A DNA stretch of 64,000 bases, from the NCBI GenBank assembly GCA_902782225.1, contig CACZMF010000005.1:245320-309319 (forward strand), given 5' to 3'. A program made the position numbers and the translations under genes. This DNA comes from an uncultured Bacteroidia bacterium (lineage in GTDB: Bacteria; Bacteroidota; Bacteroidia; Bacteroidales; UBA932). The notes under the pieces are model-generated. The model made no database searches, had not been told where the DNA came from, and saw only the letters and a list, made by a program, of their open reading frames with translations. Every line of letters begins with the position of its first letter. The first letter of the stretch is position 1. Positions 53,165 through 64,000 of the stretch are shown here, piece after piece.

Positions 53165-54585
53165 TACTAGTGATGCGTTAATTTAACGCGTTGTTCATAT
53201 AACTTATTAATATTTAATATTTTACTAACGTTTTGGCTTGTTCACGATTTGAATCGCTTTCCGATGCGATAAATCGATTCGACGTCGTTGCAAGTCCTTA
53301 ACTACAAATTATTTAAAGAGCTCTTTGACATTTTACGATTTGAAGTGAGCGTTTGGCTAAATTTGTGGCTGCTAAAAGCCGCAGATTATGAACAAAGGCA
53401 AATATGTCTTCTCCCAAGTGATGACATACTTCCCCAGGTGGGTCTTCGAAGCTGCCGTTGAAAAGTACAACGGGGACTTCCACGCAAAGAACCTCACCAG
53501 CTACAGTCACTGTCTTCATCTTATGTTTGGCCAGCTGGCCGGATGCAAGTCTCTGAAAGACATTACGTTAGTTCTAAGGTCAATCAAGAAGGCTGCCTAT
53601 CACCTTGGTATCCCAACGGTTGTTGACCCTTCGTCCTTATCCAAGGCAAACGAGGTCAGGGACTATCGGATCTTCGAGGAACTTGGTATGTGGCTCATCT
53701 GTAAAGTCCGTCCGATGTACGCGAAGGAAAACATTCCCGACGTGTATCTGCCTGGCTGGGAGATCTTCGCGATTGACTCCACGACCATCCCTTGCAGTAT
53801 CAAACTGGCTGAATGGGCTCTTGGCAAGTACTCGAAAGGCGGCGTTAAGATGCACACAGTCTTGGACTTACGAGGAAGCATACCGGATACCATCTATGTC
53901 ACGGATAGCAGGTATCACGACAGCAATTTCCTGGATGTGTATGAGCCGTACAAATGGGCCATTTACACGATGGACAAAGCATATGTGGACTTCGAAGCTC
54001 TCTATCGGATGCATGTTAACCAAACCTACTTCGTTACAAGGGCAAAGAATACGATGAAGTACGAGGTGGTTGACACCAACTACAACATCAATGACCTTGT
54101 AGGTATCGTTGGAGACCGAACCGTTCACCTTGCCGGCTATGTCAGCGAGAAGAAGTATCCGGAAGACCTGCGTCTAATTGAGTTCTATGATGCTGAGAAA
54201 GAAGAAGTTATTACCTTCCTGACCAACAACTTTGAACTCGGACCGCTTGTCATCGCCAACATCTACCGCAACCGGTGGCAGATAGAGACGTTCTTCAAAT
54301 GGATCAAGGGAAACCTGACCATCAAAGCCCTCTGGGGCTACTCCGAGAACGCTGTCAAGGTCCATCTTTGGGTCGCAATCAGTTCCTATCTGCTACTAGC
54401 CTGGGTGAAAGCCGCGCTCAAAAGTCCGCTGACCATCACCGAAGTCTCGAAGGTGGTAGGAGCATCGCTCCTTACCAAGACCGACCTATGCGAACTGCTG
54501 GATGTTCCAGCCCCACTCACTCAAAACCAAAATGTCAATGAACTTGAATTAAACTTTTAAACCAAAATTTATCGCATCAGTAGTA
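53165..54585 (+). mobile_element. Complete IS4-family insertion sequence, 1,421 bp
   Basis: Terminal inverted repeats TACTAGTGATGCG...  (left, from 53165) and TACTACTGATGCG... (right, reverse strand from 54585) match at about 17 of 20 positions and are flanked by a perfect 9-bp duplication TTTGTGGAT. The left end also has a palindrome GCGTTAATTTAACGC (53175-53189), a subterminal copy of GATGCGATAAA (53263-53273) that repeats the right-end sequence, and the palindrome AAAGAGCTCTTT (53315-53326). One transposase gene fills the rest. Lower GC than its neighbours supports acquisition. The intact ends and duplication suggest a recent insertion. Confidence 0.92.
53388..54560 (+). CDS. IS4-family DDE transposase with N-terminal DUF4372 domain
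   Basis: 390 residues. N-terminal DUF4372 region (YVFSQVMTYFPRWVFEAAVE, LHLMFGQLAGCKSLKDI). Catalytic Asp residues in EIFAIDSTTIPCS and IYTMDKAYVDF, and Glu in the Y-2-R-3-E-6-K signature YRNRWQIETFFKWIKGN. All three acids are present, so the enzyme looks active. A TAAATTTG box at 53358-53365 ends 22 nt before the ATG and may be its -7 element. The frame is complete within the terminal repeats. Confidence 0.96.
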   Translation: MNKGKYVFSQVMTYFPRWVFEAAVEKYNGDFHAKNLTSYSHCLHLMFGQLAGCKSLKDITLVLRSIKKAAYHLGIPTVVDPSSLSKANEVRDYRIFEELGMWLICKVRPMYAKENIPDVYLPGWEIFAIDSTTIPCSIKLAEWALGKYSKGGVKMHTVLDLRGSIPDTIYVTDSRYHDSNFLDVYEPYKWAIYTMDKAYVDFEALYRMHVNQTYFVTRAKNTMKYEVVDTNYNINDLVGIVGDRTVHLAGYVSEKKYPEDLRLIEFYDAEKEEVITFLTNNFELGPLVIANIYRNRWQIETFFKWIKGNLTIKALWGYSENAVKVHLWVAISSYLLLAWVKAALKSPLTITEVSKVVGASLLTKTDLCELLDVPAPLTQNQNVNELELNF

Positions 54586-54594
54586 TTTGTGGAT
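54581..54594 (+). promoter_or_regulatory. IS-end/target hybrid promoter and right copy of the 9-bp duplication
   Basis: The second TTTGTGGAT copy is at 54586-54594. Before insertion the neighbour read TATTTTTG (now 53152-53159), a full -7 consensus, about 21 nt before the downstream lipoprotein gene. After insertion the IS end supplies TAGTA, giving TAGTATTTG, one base longer than TAnnTTTG, at the same distance. The downstream gene has therefore kept a weaker or altered -7 element. Confidence 0.55.
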
Positions 54595-54610: not shown

Positions 54611-57600
54611 ATGAAAGCAAAGTCCTTTGTGGCCCGGATTCTCCTGGCCCTTGCAATCGCGGCGGCAGCGGCTGCCTGCGTCAAGTTCGACGACAGCGGG
54701 ATCCAGAGCGAACTGTCCGACATCAAGAGCCGCCTCTCCGCCCTGGAGCAGAAGGCCAACACCGACATCGCAGGTCTGTGGGAGATTGTGAATGCCCTGA
54801 AAAACAGCATCACGATCAGCTCTATAGGTGAGACCGACGATGCCTGGATCATAATATTCAACAACGGCAAGACCGCCACGCTCAGCAAGGGCGGCGCAGG
54901 CAGCACCCCCGTGGTGGGCGTCAGGCAGGACACCGACGGCATCTACTACTGGACCCTCCACGGCCAGTGGATGCTCGACTCCGGCGGCAAGAAACTCCCC
55001 GTCTCCGGCACCCCGGGCCAGTCGCCCCAGCTCAAGATCGAGGGCGGCGACTGGTACGTCTCCACCGACGGCGGCAAGACCTGGACAAAGCTCGGCAAGG
55101 CCACCGGCGAAGACGGCGACGCCTTCTTCAAGGACGTCACCTGGGACGACGACTACGTCTACCTGACCCTCAGCAACGGCACAAAAATCAAGCTCCTCCG
55201 CGGGGCCGGACTCGTGGCATCGATAGCCGCCATCCCCGACTATAGCGACGGCTCAGTCAAAGCCGGCACCGGCCTCTTCACGATACGCTTCAAGGTGGAG
55301 CCCGAAAGCGCGGCCAAAGACCTTCTGCACCTCGATGCCAAGTGCTTCAAACTGAGCGCCGCATACACCCAGACCAAGGCCGCCGAAGGCGAGCTCATCA
55401 CCCTCCCCGTCCACAAGCGCGACGTAGAAGACGGCATCCTCACCATCACCACCACCGGCGAGGATCTGGCCCCCGAGTTCACGAGTAACAAGATGGGCGT
55501 GAGCGCCGCCCTATTCATCAGCGACGGGGCCTCGCTCGCCGTGAGCAGCGGCTACTTCCCCCTGTATCCGAAGAACGAATACAACGGCCACGGCTACGTG
55601 GACCTGGGCCTTGACTCCGGCACCAAGTTCGCCGACACCAACCTCGGTGCCGGGAATCCCTGGGAGCCGGGCAACTACTACGCCTGGGGCGAGCTCAAGC
55701 CGAAAGACACTTACGACTGGAGCACATACCAATGGTGCGACGGCACGGAGGATAACATAACCAAATACAACAAGACAGACGGCCTCAAGTCTTTCGCGGA
55801 CGACGCCTACAACGACGATGTGGTCCGCCAGGAGTGGGGCGGCGAGTGGCGCACCCCCACAGACGAAGACTGGAGGGAACTGATGGACGCAAGCAAATTC
55901 AAATGGACCTGGACCATCAATAGCGGAACTTACGGCTATGAAGTCACGAGCAAGATGCCCGGCCACGAAGGCAAGTCCATCTTCCTCCCCATCACCGGTT
56001 TCCGGGACGGCATCCAACAGTCCGGCAAAACTGTGGGGCGCTACTGGTCTTCATCCCTGAGTTCCAAGGATCACAGACAAGCCGCCAACTTCTACACGTC
56101 TTCGACCATCTACGGCGTCGGATCCGAAGAGCGCCACTTAGGCATGGCCATACGCCCGGTCATCGGTAAATATGAGGCAAAGAGCATCAAAGGCGTGAGC
56201 ATCGTTCCCGGTTCCCTGACGCTTACGGTTGGAATGTCAAGGCACCTTAACGTACGTCTTGAGCCGGATAATGCCGACAATCCCAAGGTAACCTGGTCTT
56301 CCGGCAACTCCGGCGTGGCTACGGTCGCCAAAGACGGCACCGTGACCGCAGTCTCCGTGGGCACCACGACCGTGACGGTCAAGACCGTCGACGGCGGCTT
56401 CACCGCCACCTGCGCGGTGACCGTGATCAGCCCCTCCGACGTCCCCGCCCCCGTCGGCGCCATTTCGCCCGAGGACTACGGCGACTACTTCGCCTGGGGC
56501 GAGACGGAGCCGAAGAAGGAATATAGTTTGCTGAACTATAAGTTTAAGTTGGGTACGGATTATAACTGTCTATTCTCGAAGTACGTAACCAATTCCAGTT
56601 ACGGAACGGTCGATAACAAGACCGTGCTCGACCCCGAGGACGACGCAGCTCACGTGAATTGGGGCGGTAGTTGGCGAATGCCGACGGATGAAGAGTGTGA
56701 TGAGCTAATAAACAACTGCACTTGGACATGGACAACCGAAAATGGAGTGAAGGGAGGTAAGTTAACGGGGCCCAACGGGAAGAGTATCTTCCTTCCCGCC
56801 GCAGGCTACCGCTACGATGCGGACCTTGTCCGTGCGGGGTCCGACGGCTACTACTGGTCTTCGTCCCTCGATACGGTCGACCCGGCCAGCGCGTGGTTCG
56901 TCTACTTCTATTCCGGCAATGTCTTCAGGCGCAGCTACTACCGCTGGTACGGGCTATCGGTCCGTCCAGTCTACGGCGAGTTTATCCCCGTTAAGTCAAT
57001 TTCCCTGGACAAGACTTCACTGGAGCTGAACGCCGGAGATAAGCAGCAGTTGACTGCCACGGTCAGCCCTTCCAACGCCACTGCAAAGGATGTCGAATGG
57101 GAATCCAGCGATGAATCCATCGCCAAGGTAGATGGGGATGGCTTTGTCACCGCCGTTGCTCCCGGCACGGCCACCATCACGGCCTACGGCTCCAGCGGCG
57201 TGAGCGCAAACTGCACGGTCACCGTGAAGGAGGGCGTGCAGGCCGTCGACCTCGGCCTGCCGTCCGGCCTCAAGTGGGCCTCCTGCAACGTCGGAGCCAC
57301 CAGGCCCGAAGAATTCGGCGACTACTTCGCCTGGGGCGAGACGGAGCCGTACTACCAGGACGGCTATGCCTATAGCGCAAGCGCCCTCTGGAAGCCGGGC
57401 AAGGAATACGGTTACTACTGGATGAGCTACCGCTGGTGCTACGGAGGCTACGATTCCCTCAACAAATACAACGACAGCTATTCGTCCGGCACCACAGTCG
57501 ACGGCCTCACCACCCTCACCGACGACGACGACCCCGCACGCGCGGTGATGGGAGACGGCTGGCGCACGCCCACGCGCGCCGACTGGGAAGAGCTTCTGAA

Positions 57601-57898
57601 CCCAAGCAAGTGCATCTGGACTTGCACGGCGATAAAAGGCGTCCCGGGATACACGGTCACCAGCTACACCACCGGCAACTACATTTTCCTCCCCGCCGCC
57701 GGCTTTAGAGATGAAGAAAAAATCAGCAATCCCGCAGACGACGGCACCATCGGTTATTACTGGTCCTCGACCCGGTCTGCTGACCCGTGGCAGGCGTGTT
57801 CGCTCTTCTTCGTGGACGAAAAAGACGGCGGAGGCATTTTCCTTCGCGATAACGACCGTTGCAAGGGATATTCAGTCCGCCCGGTCTACGGCAAGTAG
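54611..57898 (+). CDS. DUF4988/FISUMP/Big2 surface lipoprotein, paralog 1
   Basis: 1,095 residues from the ATG at 54611; a TTG start 24 nt upstream would spoil the lipoprotein signal (IAAAAAAC). Residues 25-90 match DUF4988, the N-terminal domain of some PL29-type lyases (QSELSDIKSRLSALE, GLWEIVNALKNSI). A beta-rich region leads to three FISUMP domains (Fibrobacter major paralogous, C-type-lectin-like fold) near 325-520, 620-795 and 880-1095, with WGGEWRTPT, WGGSWRMPT and MGDGWRTPT as markers, and Big2 Ig-like domains between them. No lyase domain is present. A binding or adhesion role on the cell surface is inferred. A three-codon upstream frame (54603-54614) ends in an ATGA overlap with its start. 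Confidence 0.82.
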   Translation: MKAKSFVARILLALAIAAAAAACVKFDDSGIQSELSDIKSRLSALEQKANTDIAGLWEIVNALKNSITISSIGETDDAWIIIFNNGKTATLSKGGAGSTPVVGVRQDTDGIYYWTLHGQWMLDSGGKKLPVSGTPGQSPQLKIEGGDWYVSTDGGKTWTKLGKATGEDGDAFFKDVTWDDDYVYLTLSNGTKIKLLRGAGLVASIAAIPDYSDGSVKAGTGLFTIRFKVEPESAAKDLLHLDAKCFKLSAAYTQTKAAEGELITLPVHKRDVEDGILTITTTGEDLAPEFTSNKMGVSAALFISDGASLAVSSGYFPLYPKNEYNGHGYVDLGLDSGTKFADTNLGAGNPWEPGNYYAWGELKPKDTYDWSTYQWCDGTEDNITKYNKTDGLKSFADDAYNDDVVRQEWGGEWRTPTDEDWRELMDASKFKWTWTINSGTYGYEVTSKMPGHEGKSIFLPITGFRDGIQQSGKTVGRYWSSSLSSKDHRQAANFYTSSTIYGVGSEERHLGMAIRPVIGKYEAKSIKGVSIVPGSLTLTVGMSRHLNVRLEPDNADNPKVTWSSGNSGVATVAKDGTVTAVSVGTTTVTVKTVDGGFTATCAVTVISPSDVPAPVGAISPEDYGDYFAWGETEPKKEYSLLNYKFKLGTDYNCLFSKYVTNSSYGTVDNKTVLDPEDDAAHVNWGGSWRMPTDEECDELINNCTWTWTTENGVKGGKLTGPNGKSIFLPAAGYRYDADLVRAGSDGYYWSSSLDTVDPASAWFVYFYSGNVFRRSYYRWYGLSVRPVYGEFIPVKSISLDKTSLELNAGDKQQLTATVSPSNATAKDVEWESSDESIAKVDGDGFVTAVAPGTATITAYGSSGVSANCTVTVKEGVQAVDLGLPSGLKWASCNVGATRPEEFGDYFAWGETEPYYQDGYAYSASALWKPGKEYGYYWMSYRWCYGGYDSLNKYNDSYSSGTTVDGLTTLTDDDDPARAVMGDGWRTPTRADWEELLNPSKCIWTCTAIKGVPGYTVTSYTTGNYIFLPAAGFRDEEKISNPADDGTIGYYWSSTRSADPWQACSLFFVDEKDGGGIFLRDNDRCKGYSVRPVYGK
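56870..56956 (+). other. Hypervariable window in FISUMP domain 2 of paralog 1
   Basis: 29 codons compared with 60120-60206 without gaps: 16 codons differ in sense, and of 26 base differences 11 are in codon position 1, 11 in position 2 and 4 in position 3. Flanks on both sides are nearly identical and differ mainly silently. Confidence 0.7.
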
Positions 57899-57930: not shown

Positions 57931-59802
57931 ATGAAAGCCAAATCCATTATTGCCCGGATTCTCCTGGCCCTGGCGGTCACCGTGGCAGCAGCCGCGGCCT
58001 GCATGAAGTTCGACGACAGCGAGATCCAGAGCGAACTCTCCGGCATCAAGAGCCGCCTCTCCGCCCTGGAAGAGAAGGTCAACACCAACATCGCCGGCCT
58101 TTGGGAAATCGTGAACGCCCAGAAGAACGGCATCCAGATCACTTCCGTCTCCGAGACCGACGACACCTGGATTATATCATTCAGCAACGGCAAGACGGCC
58201 ACAGTCAGCAAGGGCAAGAGCCCCGTGATAGGGGTGGCACGCCATCAGGGCGTCTATTATTGGACACTGGACGACGAGTGGCTGCTCGACGCCTCAGGCA
58301 ACATGCTCCCCGTCTCCGGCGCCCCCGGCACGACGCCGCAGCTCAAGATCGACGGCGGTTACTGGTACGTCTCCACCGACGAAGGCAAGACCTGGACAAA
58401 GCTCGGCAAAGCCACCGGCGAGGACGGCGACTCCTTCTTCAAGGACATCACCTGGGACGATGACTATGTCTACCTCACCCTCCAGAACGGCACCAAGTTC
58501 GAGCTCCGCAGGGGCGATGGCCTCGTGGCCTCGATAGCGGCAATCCCCGACTACAGCGACGGCGCCGTGAAGGCCGGCACCGGCCTCTTCACCATCCGCT
58601 TCAAGGTGGAGCCCGGAAGCGCCGCCGAGGGTCTTCTTTACCTCGACAACAAGTGCTTCAAGCTGAGCGCGGCATACACCCTCACTAAAGCCGCAGCGGG
58701 AGACCTCGCCACCCTCCCCATCTACGAGATGGAGGCGAATGACGGCATCCTGACCATCCTCACCGACGGCGAGAGCCTGGCGAAGGAGTTCGCAAGCAAG
58801 AAACTCGGCGTCAGCGCCGCCCTATTTATCAGCGACGGGGCCTCCCTCGCCGTGAACTCCGGCTACTTCCCGCTGTACCCCAAGAACGAATACAACGGCC
58901 ACGGCTACGTGGACCTGGGCCTTGATTCCGGCAACAAGTTCGCCGATACCAACCTCGGGGCCGAAAACCCCTGGGAACCGGGCAACTACTACGCCTGGGG
59001 CGAGCTGGAGCCCAAGAAAGACTACAGCTGGGCAACGTACAAATGGTGCGACGGCACGGAGGATCACATGACCAAATACAATGATACCGACGGCCTCAAG
59101 TCTTTTGCCGACGACAACTACAAAGACGACGTCGCCCGTCAGGAATGGGGCGGGGAGTGGCACACTCCCACGGAAAAAGACTGGTGGGAGCTCTTGGACG
59201 AAAGCAAATTCAAATGGACCTGGACATATAAGGAAGGGAGCTACGGCTATGAGGTCACAAGCAAGAAATCAGGCTACGAAGGTGCATCCATTTTCCTTCC
59301 TGCAGCCGGGTATATGGATGGAAAGTGGCAGGTGGGTAATGATGCAGGGTATTACTGGATTTCTGAATTGTCATTAAAAAAGGAAAAAGCGTTGATTATG
59401 ATGGCGTCAAGTGATGAGGCTATAGCAGGTTATTGGGTTGCTTCTCGCAGTTATGGGATGTCCATCCGCCCTGTCCTCGGCAAATACGTGCCCAAGAGCG
59501 TCAAAGGCGTGAGCCTCGACCGCGGGGCCCTCACGATGGTCGTAGGCAGCACAAGGCAGCTTAGCGCCACGGTCGAACCTGCCGACATCAAGAATCCCAA
59601 ACTGAGATGGACTTCCTCCGACCAGGGCGTTGCCACAGTTGCCAAGGACGGCACCGTGACCGCGGTTTCCGTGGGCACCACGACCGTGACGGTCAAGACC
59701 GTCGACGGCGGCTTCACCGCCACCTGCGCGGTGACCGTGATCAGCCCCTCCGACGTCCCCGCCCCCCGAAGTCCAATTATGCGGTTACAACGTACAAGTT
59801 GA
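57931..59802 (+). pseudogene. DUF4988/FISUMP/Big2 surface lipoprotein, paralog 2, 5' part (frameshifted)
   Basis: 623 residues from the ATG at 57931; lipoprotein signal ends in VAAAAAC. Same order as paralog 1: DUF4988 (QSELSGIKSRLSALEEKV), beta-rich region, FISUMP domain 1 near 325-515 (WGGEWHTPTEKDWWELL), Big2 to about 610. After ISPSDVPAP the frame is lost and ends 11 residues later. Compared with paralog 1, 58 bp are missing at 59767, which gives a -1 shift; the lost part encodes the GDYFAWGE opening of the next FISUMP domain. A six-codon upstream frame (57914-57934) overlaps the ATG through ATGA. A stable truncated lipoprotein with one FISUMP domain is still possible. Confidence 0.8.
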
Positions 59803-61967
59803 GTAATGGAACTTGGAATACACTAACTAAATACAACTTCAATTCCAGTTACGGAACGGTGGACAACAAGATCGTTCTCGACCCTGAGGATGACGCGGCC
59901 CACGTGAATTGGGGCGGAAGTTGGAGGATGCCGACGTTGGAAGAGTGTGATGAATTAATATACAAATGTACCTGGACCTGGACAACCCAGAACGGAGTAA
60001 ACGGAAGACTCGTCACGGGCCCCAACGGCAAGTCCATCTTCCTTCCCGCCGCAGGCTACCGCTACGACGTGGACCTTGCCCGTGCGGGGTCCGACGGCTA
60101 CTACTGGTCCTCGTCCCTCAATACGGACTACCCGAACTTCGCGTACTTCGTCGACTTCTCTTCCGGTTATGTCGGCAGGGGCTACCTCACCCGCTACTAC
60201 GGGCGGTCGGTCCGTCCCGTCTACGGCGAGTTTATCCCCGTTAAGTCAATTTCCCTGGACAAGACTTCATTGGAGCTGAACGCCGGAGACAAGCAACAGT
60301 TGACGGCCACGGTCAGCCCCTCCAACGCCACTGCCAAAGATATACACTGGGCTTCCAGCGATGAATCCATCGCCAAGGTAGATCAGGACGGCCTTGTCAC
60401 CGCCGTAGCCCCCGGTACGGCCACCATCACGGCCTACGGGTCCAGCGGAGTGAGTGCAAGCTGCGAGGTAACGGTTACGCCAAAGGCCGTTAATCCCGAG
60501 TACGTTGACCTCGGCCTCAGTGTCAAGTGGGCCACCTTCAACGTTGGCGCCACCAAGCCGGAAGAGTCCGGCGACTTCTTCGCCTGGGGCGAGACAGAGA
60601 CGAAGGGTGTGTACAATTGGAGTACTTATAAGTTCTGGGTAGGTGGCGACCCGGACTCGGTAGGCGATGTAACATTGAACAAGTACGTTACATCACCTAA
60701 TGCTAAATTATCTATTTACTGGGGTGGGGCCGGTTCATGGGACAACAAGACAGTACTTGACCTTGAGGACGATGCAGCACATGTGAAGTGGGGGGATAGT
60801 TGGCGAATGCCGACAAAAGCAGAGTGGACAGAATTAAATGAAAAATGCACATGGATCAGGACAAGACAAAATGGCGTCACCGGAGCCCTTTTCACCGGCC
60901 CCAATGGCAACAGTATTTTCCTTCCCTTAACAGGCAGCTGGCGCGGCGCTGACCATGAATTTGCAGCAATTACTGGTCATTACTGGACTTCATCCCTCAA
61001 TGAGCACACCAGAGCGTATAATGGCTATATAGGTTTTGATTATAATTCTGTTGTAACCGATAGTCACTCTAGCCGCAGCTTAGGATACGTCGTTCGCCCT
61101 GTTTATGGCGAATTCATCCCCGTGTCATCAATTTCTTTGGATAAAAAGACACTGGAGTTGACTGTTGATGATACGTACCAGCTGACGGCAACAGTCAGCC
61201 CGTCGAATGCTACGGCAAAGAATGTCAGCTGGGTATCCGATCGCTTAGATGTTGCCCTCCCCAATTATCAAGGCATTATCACCGCCAGGAACCCAGGCAC
61301 CGCCACCATCATAGCCTATGCCTCCAACGGCGAGAGCACAAGCTGCGTGGTCACCGTGAAAGAAAAGGAGGGCCCGAAGGCGGTGGATCTCGGTCTGCCA
61401 TCCGGCCTCAAGTGGGCTTCCTGCAATGTGGGCGCTACAAAGCCAGAGCAATTCGGAGACTACTTCTCATGGGGAGAGACGGAGACCAAGAACGAATACA
61501 CATGGTCCACCTACAAGTGGGGGAACGGCGACTGGGACGCTGATGAACATCTGTCCAAGTATAATACCGACCCCTCTTGCGGGAACGTTGACGGAAATAC
61601 CATGCTGCTGCCTGAGGATGACGTTGCCCAGGACAAATGGAAAGGCGGCTGGCGCATGCCCACGGACGCAGAATGGACGGAACTGAGGGACTACTGCACC
61701 TGGACATGGACAGTCAGTTATGAAGGAACCGGCGTGGCCGGATATATCGTGGAAGGAACCAAGAACAGCTCCATCTTCCTTCCCGCCACCGGTCACATGG
61801 AAGATGAGTTCGTCCTCGATCCCGGTGTCAACTGCGGCTACTGGTCGTCGAACATCGATCCGGATAATCCAGCTTACGCGTGGTTCGTTTATTTCGAAGA
61901 AGGCGGAGTCTACAGGACGATCGGCCCTCGCAAATACGGCTATTCCGTCCGCCCGGTCTCAGAGTAA
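59769..61967 (+). pseudogene. DUF4988/FISUMP/Big2 lipoprotein paralog 2, 3' part
   Basis: The continuing frame encodes about 732 residues with no start of its own near the break. It carries the rest of FISUMP domain 2 (WGGSWRMPTLEECDELI), Big2, FISUMP 3 (VDLGLSVKWATFNVGATKPE, WGDSWRMPTKAEWTEL), Big2, and FISUMP 4 (VDLGLPSGLKWASCNVG, WKGGWRMPTDAEWTEL) ending in YGYSVRPVSE. One extra C in the C6 tract at 59762-59767 would restore a ~1,345-residue protein. Stretches at about 60600-60870 and 60950-61080 are visibly more AT-rich than the rest, suggesting replacement by foreign cassettes. Confidence 0.8.
60120..60206 (+). other. Hypervariable window in FISUMP domain 2 of paralog 2
   Basis: Counterpart of 56870-56956, equal length, with substitutions concentrated in first and second codon positions; framework residues P, A, F-V, F, G, V, R, R, YG and SVRP are kept. 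Confidence 0.7.
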
Positions 61968-62207: not shown

Positions 62208-62573
62208 ATGAAACGCCTAACCAAAAAAGAAGAGATTATCATGAACCACTTCTGGGAGAAGGGGCCGCTGTTTGTGAGGGAGTTACGGGAGTTGTATCCG
62301 GAGCCCCGGCCGCATTTCTCCACCCTGAGCACCCAGGTGCGGACGCTTCAGGAAGAAGGCTTCATCGACCATAAGTCTTATGGTCCAACCTACCAGTACT
62401 TCGCCAAGGTAACGAAAGAGGAGTACAAGCAGCGGTCGCTCATCGGCCTCATCGACAAGTATTTCGACAATTCCTACCTGAGTGCCGTATCAGCCCTGGT
62501 GAAGGAGGAGAAGATCTCAATCGAAGAGCTGAAGGAACTCATCGATCTGGTTGAAAAAGGTGAACAGAAATGA
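62208..62573 (+). CDS. BlaI/MecI/CopY family transcriptional repressor
   Basis: 121 residues. Winged-helix region: LTKKEEIIMNHFWEKGPLFVREL in two halves, HFSTLSTQVRTLQEEGFIDH (recognition helix and wing), then a C-terminal dimerisation helix pair (SLIGLIDKYFDNSYLSAVSALV). The family represses its own operon and is inactivated by cleavage after the BlaR1-type sensor peptidase is triggered. Its stop overlaps the start of the M56 peptidase gene by four bases. Confidence 0.95.
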   Translation: MKRLTKKEEIIMNHFWEKGPLFVRELRELYPEPRPHFSTLSTQVRTLQEEGFIDHKSYGPTYQYFAKVTKEEYKQRSLIGLIDKYFDNSYLSAVSALVKEEKISIEELKELIDLVEKGEQK

Positions 62574-64000
62574 TGGAATTCCTCATATATGATGCTAAGG
62601 TAGCGCTTGCGCTTCTGGTGTTCTACCTGTTCTATCGTTTCCTTTTGAAAAAGGAGACGTTCCACCGGCTCAACCGGGCAGTGCTGGTAGGAACGGCTGT
62701 GCTCTCGTTTCTGCTGCCGCTGTGCATCATTACCATCCATAAGCCGATGGAGATGGCAGCGCCCCTCGTGACGGAACCCGCCATGGTCGCCGAACTGCCG
62801 GAACAGGAACTGGCCCCGCTGGTTCAGGTCTCCGAGCCCTGGTGGCACGTTGCGCTTACCATCCTGTTCTGGGCAGGAGTGGCTTTCGTCCTCGGCCGGG
62901 TGCTCATCTCCATCCTGTCCATCCTCCGCATCATCCGTCAGGGCGAACCGGTCCGAAAAGAAGACGGCTGCCGGATTCTCGTCACCGAGCGGGACATCGA
63001 CCCGTTCAGCTGGATGAAATCTATCGTCCTGTCCCGGAAAGACTGGGAGATCCCGCACGAATCCATCCTTGCCCACGAAAAGGCGCACATCGCTTATGGG
63101 CACTCCATCGAAATACTCCTGGTCGATGTCCTCTCGGCCCTCCAATGGTTCAATCCCGCCATCTGGATGCTCCGCGCGGACCTCAAGGAACTCCACGAGT
63201 ACGAGGCCGACGACGCCGTGCTCCGTGCCGGCGCAAACCTCCGGGAATACCAATATCTGCTCATAAGAAAAGCTGTCAGCAAGAGCGGCTACTCAGTTGC
63301 TAACAGCTTTAATCACAGTATCCTTAAAAATCGTATTACTATGATGTCAAAATCCAGATCCCCTCTCGCGAGAGGGCTGCGGGCGCTCTGGCTGCTCCCG
63401 CTCGTCTGCCTGGCCATCGGCCTGCAGGCAAGGACTGTCTATGTCCCCGTGGACAAAGATAGTGAAAAAAACGTTTCCGATGAAAAGCCCCAGGGCTATC
63501 TTTCCGAAATAGTGGTCATCGGCTATGGCGGCCCGGAGGCCCCCCGGCACCACAAATCGCTGGAGAAAGATCCTCTGCCGTCCATCAAGAATCCGGACAT
63601 GGACACGGAGGCGGTTTGCCGGGAGGTTTTCAGCCGGTGGCTGAACACCCGCCTCGTCTATCCGGACGAGGCCAAGACCGATGACGGTACGGTCCTGGCG
63701 AAGTTCACGGTCGGAACCGACGGAAAAGTCAAAGACATTACCATTCTTTGGAGCGTTTCCGAACAGCTGGACGGAATCGTCGCCCAGCAGATCGCGAAGT
63801 CTCCCGAATGGACACCGGCCATGAAAGACGGGAAACCCGTCGAAATGTCATTCATCCAGCCCGTCGTTTTCATGGTTCGGACGTCATCGAAAACCCCTTC
63901 TCCCGTAGTCCTGAACATCCGGAAGGATGGAACGATCGAAAGCGGAGGCAAGGTTTATACCTTGTCACAGCTGAAAGACATCATTCCGCCCCATGCTGCA
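62570..64000 (+). CDS. BlaR1-type M56 sensor peptidase with TonB-like C-terminal domain, 3' end outside window
   Basis: 477 residues visible from the ATG at 62570, open to the window end; a second ATG follows at once. Several N-terminal membrane helices (VALALLVFYLFYRFLL, LTILFWAGVAFVLGRVL), then the M56 domain with zinc motif in ESILAHEKAHIAYGH (HExxH) and ELHEYEADDAVL. A further membrane helix (LRALWLLPLVCLAIGL) is followed by an outside segment containing EIVVIGYGG, which looks like a SusC Ton-box/plug start, and a TonB-C-like domain (YPDEAKTDDGTVLAKFTV, DGKVKDITIL, WTPAMKDGKPV). Bacteroidota M56 proteins often carry such extensions. It probably senses an envelope signal and relieves BlaI-like repression. 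Confidence 0.92.
   Translation, partial: MMEFLIYDAKVALALLVFYLFYRFLLKKETFHRLNRAVLVGTAVLSFLLPLCIITIHKPMEMAAPLVTEPAMVAELPEQELAPLVQVSEPWWHVALTILFWAGVAFVLGRVLISILSILRIIRQGEPVRKEDGCRILVTERDIDPFSWMKSIVLSRKDWEIPHESILAHEKAHIAYGHSIEILLVDVLSALQWFNPAIWMLRADLKELHEYEADDAVLRAGANLREYQYLLIRKAVSKSGYSVANSFNHSILKNRITMMSKSRSPLARGLRALWLLPLVCLAIGLQARTVYVPVDKDSEKNVSDEKPQGYLSEIVVIGYGGPEAPRHHKSLEKDPLPSIKNPDMDTEAVCREVFSRWLNTRLVYPDEAKTDDGTVLAKFTVGTDGKVKDITILWSVSEQLDGIVAQQIAKSPEWTPAMKDGKPVEMSFIQPVVFMVRTSSKTPSPVVLNIRKDGTIESGGKVYTLSQLKDIIPPHAA

Follow-up and report, generated by a model that had tools for sequence, protein, structure and literature searches.

Probable orphan repeats of a diversity-generating retroelement in two tandem genes for predicted lipoproteins of an uncultured Bacteroidales bacterium

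Introduction

Two tandem genes for predicted lipoproteins of an uncultured Bacteroidales bacterium each contain a short coding segment in which amino acid changes between the copies are far denser than in the surrounding sequence. Which process wrote this variation, and is it still at work in a genome in which no enzyme of the expected kind was found? An earlier note on this DNA had read the pair of segments as products of a diversity-generating retroelement (DGR). In the mechanism considered here, a template RNA rich in AAC and AAT codons would be copied by an error-prone reverse transcriptase (RT) that misreads template adenines, and the cDNA would replace the end of an Lcl_C/FISUMP (C-type-lectin-like) putative binding domain on a predicted surface lipoprotein.

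The Lcl_C family (PF07603) is presumably the former DUF1566 under a new name. DUF1566 was reported to have C-lectin folds and to occur in DGR target genes more often than any other Pfam domain (PMC6642488), and the domains described here resemble these targets in that they score as Lcl_C. Bacteroides DGRs act on tip pilins, according to a passage in a further source (PMC12632263, citing Macadangdang et al.). These are likewise surface proteins of Bacteroidales, whereas the genes studied here have the order DUF4988-Big_2-FISUMP and matched no pilin family in Pfam. A literature search returned no paper naming both “diversity-generating retroelement” and “FISUMP.”

The locus and its domains

The analyzed stretch of 64,000 nt (64 kb; the window) lies on contig C5 of a draft genome of 2.58 Mb in 34 contigs that is 92% complete. 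Genes 1 and 2 form a tandem pair of paralogs with a layout of tandem modules (Table 1). The frame of gene 1 is open already from a TTG at 54587, its predicted lipoprotein signal carries a lipobox-like AAAAC motif (by reading), and its domains are matched by the Pfam models DUF4988 (1.2e-27), Big_2 (1.2e-32), Lcl_C (1.2e-14), and Fib_succ_major (1.1e-8). The variable repeat of copy 1 is situated in the middle one of the three Lcl_C/FISUMP domains. Gene 2 is interrupted by a frame break near a run of C residues at about 59762-59767, for which decay, phase variation and an assembly error are candidate explanations. The first piece is open already from a TTG at 57859, and its FISUMP-like domain was spotted by eye without a Pfam match. 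The open reading frame (ORF) of the second piece consists, up to about 59766, of Big_2 DNA read in another frame; relative to gene 1, the second FISUMP domain lacks its start (59762-59800 region), and the variable segment of copy 2 follows downstream of the break in another frame.

Table 1. Positions of the two lipoprotein genes and their variable repeats in the window
Feature	Positions	Strand	Description	Basis
Gene 1	54611..57898	+	Predicted lipoprotein: DUF4988, two Big_2, three Lcl_C/FISUMP stretches	ORF and Pfam
Variable repeat 1, full length	56789..56971	+	Limits approximate	Codon-by-codon comparison with the G199 and goat MAG templates
3' part of repeat 1	56870..56956	+	Segment of the earlier note	
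Gene 2, first piece	57931..59802	+	Paralogous lipoprotein: DUF4988 and Big_2, one FISUMP-like domain	Pfam for DUF4988 and Big_2
Gene 2, second piece	59607..61967	+	Three Lcl_C stretches and two Big_2	ORF and Pfam
Variable repeat 2, full length	60039..60221	+	Limits approximate	Comparison with templates
3' part of repeat 2	60120..60206	+	Paralog-2 segment of the earlier note	

A DDE transposase gene (DDE_Tnp_1, DUF4372) occupies positions 53388-54560 and ends about 50 bases upstream of the gene 1 ATG; an insertion element may therefore sit in the promoter region of gene 1. On the other side of the pair, positions 62208-63999 code for a Penicillinase-repressor-type regulator (Penicillinase_R) followed by a membrane peptidase/TonB-like gene, the latter assigned by eye.

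Pfam places both variable segments inside Lcl_C/FISUMP domains, as the earlier note had proposed. The Lcl_C model matches 30 of 31 members, and in member 1 the match reaches the end of the repeat. A predicted structure model of the domain has a pLDDT of 85.6; Foldseek returned no PDB match at E 0.001 or better, and thus no C-type lectin, and a sequence search of the PDB found no relative of the domain. A C-type-lectin-like fold is suggested by the family models. By analogy with its domain family, the protein may bind variable ligands at the cell surface.

Comparison of the two copies

A recount of the two 3' parts reproduced the figures of the earlier note: a gapless alignment over 29 codons with 26 differences (11, 11, and 4 at codon positions 1, 2, and 3), 16 amino acid changes and an unchanged third base in 13 of the 16 codons concerned. 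The flanks had been described as differing by only a few, mostly silent changes. They are indeed less changed per codon and mostly silently so, but the differences are not few, amounting to 42 in the 93 codons of the upstream flank (56591-56869; 9, 6, and 27 by position; 11 amino acids) and to 34 in the 92 codons of the downstream flank (7, 6, and 21; 9 amino acids). The ratio of transitions to transversions is 8:18 in the segment vs. 20:22 and 15:19 in the upstream and downstream flanks, respectively. Among fourfold degenerate codons of this genome, a final C or T was found in 17/20 vs. 149/243 (P 0.051), a weak test because non-DGR-like domains are mixed in.

The first FISUMP-like domain pair has also diverged between genes 1 and 2 at the same end (about 56020-56160 vs. 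59340-59470); judged by eye, the changes in length and AT content there look like segment replacement and not like the work of a DGR.

Prediction of the template and cassettes in relatives

A first survey of 151 genomes of the genus, this one included, used a 441-nt query with the best four candidates per genome scored, and identified a related stretch in at least 52 of them. Third bases were analyzed column by column in 26 equal-length segments of 39 amino acids out of 42 distinct ones. Variable columns mostly hold a column-specific third base, T at three of them and C at most others, and differ at the first two bases; in some, it is mainly the second base that changes (GNC or TNC). Fourfold codons ended in C or T in 93/107 cases at the 16 variable columns vs. 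1046/1693 upstream. From these third bases, a template was predicted with AAT or AAC assigned to each column and written down before the search, and its 126-nt version served as the query against 400 genus genomes. The best two candidates per genome were scored, so that matches may be missed, and retrieval by similarity to the query favors segments of like framework.

The best match among the 400 genomes was G199:C4:6902-7027, with the translation GNYWSSSLNTDNPNNAYNVNFNSSEVNRNNNNRNNGQSVRPV. It contains 15 AAC/AAT codons, and its open frame runs on into an RT with the motifs IGNLTSQ and YVDD, which we take to mark it as DGR-type. A repeat on another contig of the same genome differs from this template on adenines at 20 of 22 mismatches over 177 nt, or 21 of 28 over 186 nt. 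Similar cassettes exist in two further genus genomes (G280, G084) and in MAGs from horse feces (Horse_feces30) and goat rumen (RGIG3478); the goat and horse templates were found by a protein search with the domain of the variable segment, independently of the predicted template. All five cassettes share with the present repeats an Lcl_C/FISUMP-type framework from F(L/F)PAAG to SVR(P/A)V, and they combine it with an AAC/AAT-rich template whose mismatches lie on, or nearly only on, adenines. They possess an RT and a template and, in all but G199, a nearby repeat, whereas in the present genome only repeats were found.

Template/repeat pairs were present in 19 of the 26 sets that were analyzed and in 13 of 20 retrieved loci, some of them with other frameworks. 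In a named collection, 79 related loci belong to Bacteroidales or Bacteroidia MAGs, many of them from rumen, hindgut or feces by title. In the DGR on G280:C2, a gene between repeat and template (L128:1961-2692) gives a weak match to MutS domain I (E 0.004, below the cut-off) and perhaps encodes an accessory protein. Related DGR-type RTs with 35-44% identity also occur at 12 loci on IMG/VR viral contigs (L242-L252); N-rich, template-like stretches of other lectin-like frameworks are present at nine of the 12, and no link to the G199-type template was seen at these loci.

Variation on template adenines

The DGR reading predicts that differences fall on template adenines, and with templates taken from other genomes the variation is indeed concentrated there. 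Over 126 nt, the two copies differ at 28 sites, of which 22 lie on the 39 adenines of the G199 template. Restricted to codon positions 1 and 2, 21 of 22 differences fall on G199 adenines (P 6.6e-9), compared with 20 of 22 for the goat template (P 9e-8) and 19 of 22 for the horse template (P 3e-6). Agreement is favored for the G199 template, which had been chosen as the closest match to a prediction made from these segments among others. Because the sequences are related, the P values are too small and are taken as effect sizes. All comparisons of variation are from copy to copy and from species to species. The six differences off G199 adenines comprise three silent ones, two at TGG/TAC codons and one at a position where the horse template reads AAT.

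Three codon pairs with a changed third base had been held against a simple DGR origin. The CTA/CGG pair fits a CAA codon in the G199 and goat templates, and for the TGG/TAC pair at 56894 there are two fitting template alleles (G199 has TAC, goat TGG); the third base of the TGG/TAC pair at 56945 stays unexplained. When copy 1 was compared with six hand-picked relatives and differences at positions 1 and 2 were counted on goat-template adenines, the proportions were 30/31 (G145), 30/31 (G061), 32/34 (G316), 25/27 (G014), and 33/35 (RUG392); G011 was the least clean with 32/41.

Evidence also comes from the third codon base. From 39 segments in all, 36 lie in genomes without a DGR RT match; six of these with less than 70% identity at non-adenine template sites were dropped, including two other domains of the present genome, and 30 segments from 24 genomes remained. 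At template adenines, these segments differ pairwise by a mean of 0.61 (position 1) and 0.52 (position 2), vs. 0.12 and 0.08 at other bases. Third bases T and C occur in a ratio of 53:3 at template-AAT columns vs. 19:361 at template-AAC columns. A second set, obtained by protein search in another collection (66 of 134 segments used, two of them the templates L184 and L195), gave T:C ratios of 87:35 for AAT and 94:706 for AAC, with one AAT column, column 8, mixed (30 T, 30 C). As a final C and a final T encode the same amino acid in these codons, selection at the protein level cannot hold the third base. Chance and plain positive selection were rejected on this memory of the third base, which follows the template column by column, unless the pattern is a product of the way in which the segments were retrieved.

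Anatomy of the full repeats

The hypervariable stretch marked in the earlier note is real but too short, as the templates extend both repeats to the limits given in Table 1. In the 3' part, repeat 1 is changed from the template at 24/39 adenine sites and 14/87 others (P 6.5e-7), and repeat 2 at 22/39 and 11/87 (P 1.1e-6). The 5' part is already written in both copies, with N codons of the template replaced by Y, Y, V/A, R, and D. Compared with each other, the copies differ in the 5' part at one of 13 adenine sites and at two other sites, vs. 22 of 39 adenine sites in the 3' part (P 0.003). At non-adenine sites of the 3' part they differ in 6/87 cases vs. 71/459 in the flanks (P 0.04), and this lower divergence weakly suggests writing after the duplication.

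From the near-identical 5' part, both copies appear to share one older written state, the 3' part having been rewritten separately later. Copying that begins at the 3' end, with upstream joining at variable points, would produce this arrangement. A shared 5' part next to separate 3' parts fits copying from the 3' end with joining upstream at homology, and an exchange of the 3' segment between repeats would also fit. In one published study, 3' integration of cDNA occurs at a mapped boundary, 5' integration needs homology between template and variable repeat (TR/VR), and cryptic 5' sites are used in a truncated repeat (PMC3240598). Downstream of the present repeats only weak hairpins are predicted, and they differ between the two copies.

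Search for a DGR in this genome

As the earlier note had stated, no RT or template gave a match inside the 64-kb stretch. Neither the DGR RT nor the template repeat that its reading implied was found in the rest of the 92%-complete draft: the DGR RT query had no match at E 1e-10, and DNA queries of 751, 441, and 126 nt recovered no template. Apart from the two paralogs, the 751-nt (25/25 candidates scored) and 126-nt (8/8) queries retrieved just weaker or incomplete matches. Among accessory genes (Avd or others), PF05635 has no match in this genome either, a weak test because the model misses many, matching only 6 of 151 genus genomes; nor was the accessory-like protein of the G280 DGR matched, again a weak test without a positive control.

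The sole RVT_1 match in the genome is a UG26-type RT about 79 kb before the 64-kb stretch (G000:C5:165485-166108; L001, L098; PADLOC RT_UG26, 507 bits). This enzyme of the DRT class resembles the sought writer in being a bacterial RT on the same contig and differs in having no template/repeat pair around it; on family assignment and the lack of such a pair within the surrounding 14 kb, it was rejected as the writer. Upstream of it lies a 188-aa gene with a weak PADLOC match to RTasCOG2852 (21 bits), and the two genes are a candidate antiphage system.

Orphan repeats across the genus

The predicted template matches at least 72 of the 400 genus genomes, 16 with and 56 without a DGR RT match. Of the 30 matching genomes with a completeness of 90% or more and a contamination of 5% or less, 23 lack an RT match. 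RT matches were found in 39 of the 400 genomes, in 16/72 of those that match the template vs. 23/328 of the others (P 3e-4; best two candidates per genome scored). This enrichment is no evidence for an association of repeats with RTs because in 12 of the 16 genomes (G019, G048, G051, G065, G084, G143, G150, G199, G280, G288, G327, and G345) a match lies no more than about 200 bases from the RT and is probably the template. Matches away from an RT exist in at least 5 of 39 RT genomes (G105, G199, G241, G270, and G371) vs. at least 56 of 361 genomes without RT (hand count); among these five, a template fits its distant repeat in G199 only.

Where a stop codon is present in the locus, 46 of 63 related segments end at most 15 residues from it, and 17 are more than 60 residues away, as in gene 1. 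Of the present repeats, one sits inside a multidomain gene and the other follows a frame break, in which they are unlike the cassettes of the relatives.

Discussion

The adenine pattern and the third-base memory make it very probable that the two segments are variable repeats written by a DGR. Ordinary diversifying selection on a putative ligand-binding end, acting by point mutation without a DGR, would explain why changes at positions 1 and 2 prevail, as they dominate any set of amino acid-changing substitutions, and the same end has diverged in the neighboring domain pair too, judged by eye with shifts in length and composition of a kind not made by a DGR. We nevertheless consider it extremely improbable, given that a silent C/T third base follows the template column by column and that nearly all changes at positions 1 and 2 hit adenines of another species' template. 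Ready-made variation might instead have been imported from other FISUMP paralogs through segmental gene conversion or an exchange of modules: the paralogs stand in tandem modules, homologous recombination could spread written repeats, and a shared 5' with a different 3' part could arise in this way too. As the source of the variation such exchange is most unlikely, since it moves variation and does not create an adenine pattern, and searches of the genome yielded no further donor that matched; it may, however, act in addition to a DGR.

If the repeats were written by a DGR, they now appear to be orphans, which either became frozen when the element was lost or are served by a DGR missing from the assembly. 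We give an even chance to the former, in which the DGR is lost and the repeats are passed on and reshuffled like any other sequence. Neither an RT match nor a template was found, copy 2 lies behind a frame break, and 56 of 72 matching genus genomes lack an RT match. However, a failure to find these parts in a draft assembly counts for little, and the slightly lower divergence at non-adenine sites than in the flanks suggests writing after the duplication. It is a real possibility, if one that we hold with some reserve, that the writing DGR is present in the living organism and was missed through binning loss or on a mobile element, the repeats being active targets. The genome is only 92% complete, some relatives' DGR contigs are short (4.2 kb in G280, 7.8 kb in G199) while others are long (577 kb in G013), the G199 template is fitted by a repeat on another contig, and about one in ten genus genomes has a DGR RT match. 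The assembly of 34 contigs is good, though, a frame break ahead of copy 2 is unexpected in a gene in use, and 23 of the 30 high-quality matching genomes are equally without an RT match.

Repeats without a neighboring enzyme have been described. Parts of one report cover partial DGRs of Nanoarchaeota, consisting of target gene, repeat and cis elements, which show adenine-directed variation without an RT gene and were read as fossils or remote targets (PMC4372165); their genome holds other DGRs, whereas none was found here. Remote DGR targets also appear in an excerpt on Thiohalocapsa (PMC10907252). The kind is thus already known; as far as the literature was searched, the additions are new members, a repeat that lies internally in gene 1, and a count of the genus's orphan repeats.

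Orphan repeats alone suffice to recognize a DGR footprint and to predict its template. Searches anchored on the RT would miss such repeats, as the 56 matching genus genomes without a detectable DGR enzyme illustrate. We tentatively propose, as a possibility somewhat short of likely, that DGR-written binding sites far outnumber DGRs in the genus: the retroelements may be gained and lost, or pass through on mobile elements, and the written repertoires would stay, duplicated with their genes and inherited frozen without the machine. It thereby becomes testable, in gut and rumen Bacteroidales, whether DGR-made diversity outlasts its element or has mobile DGRs as its source.
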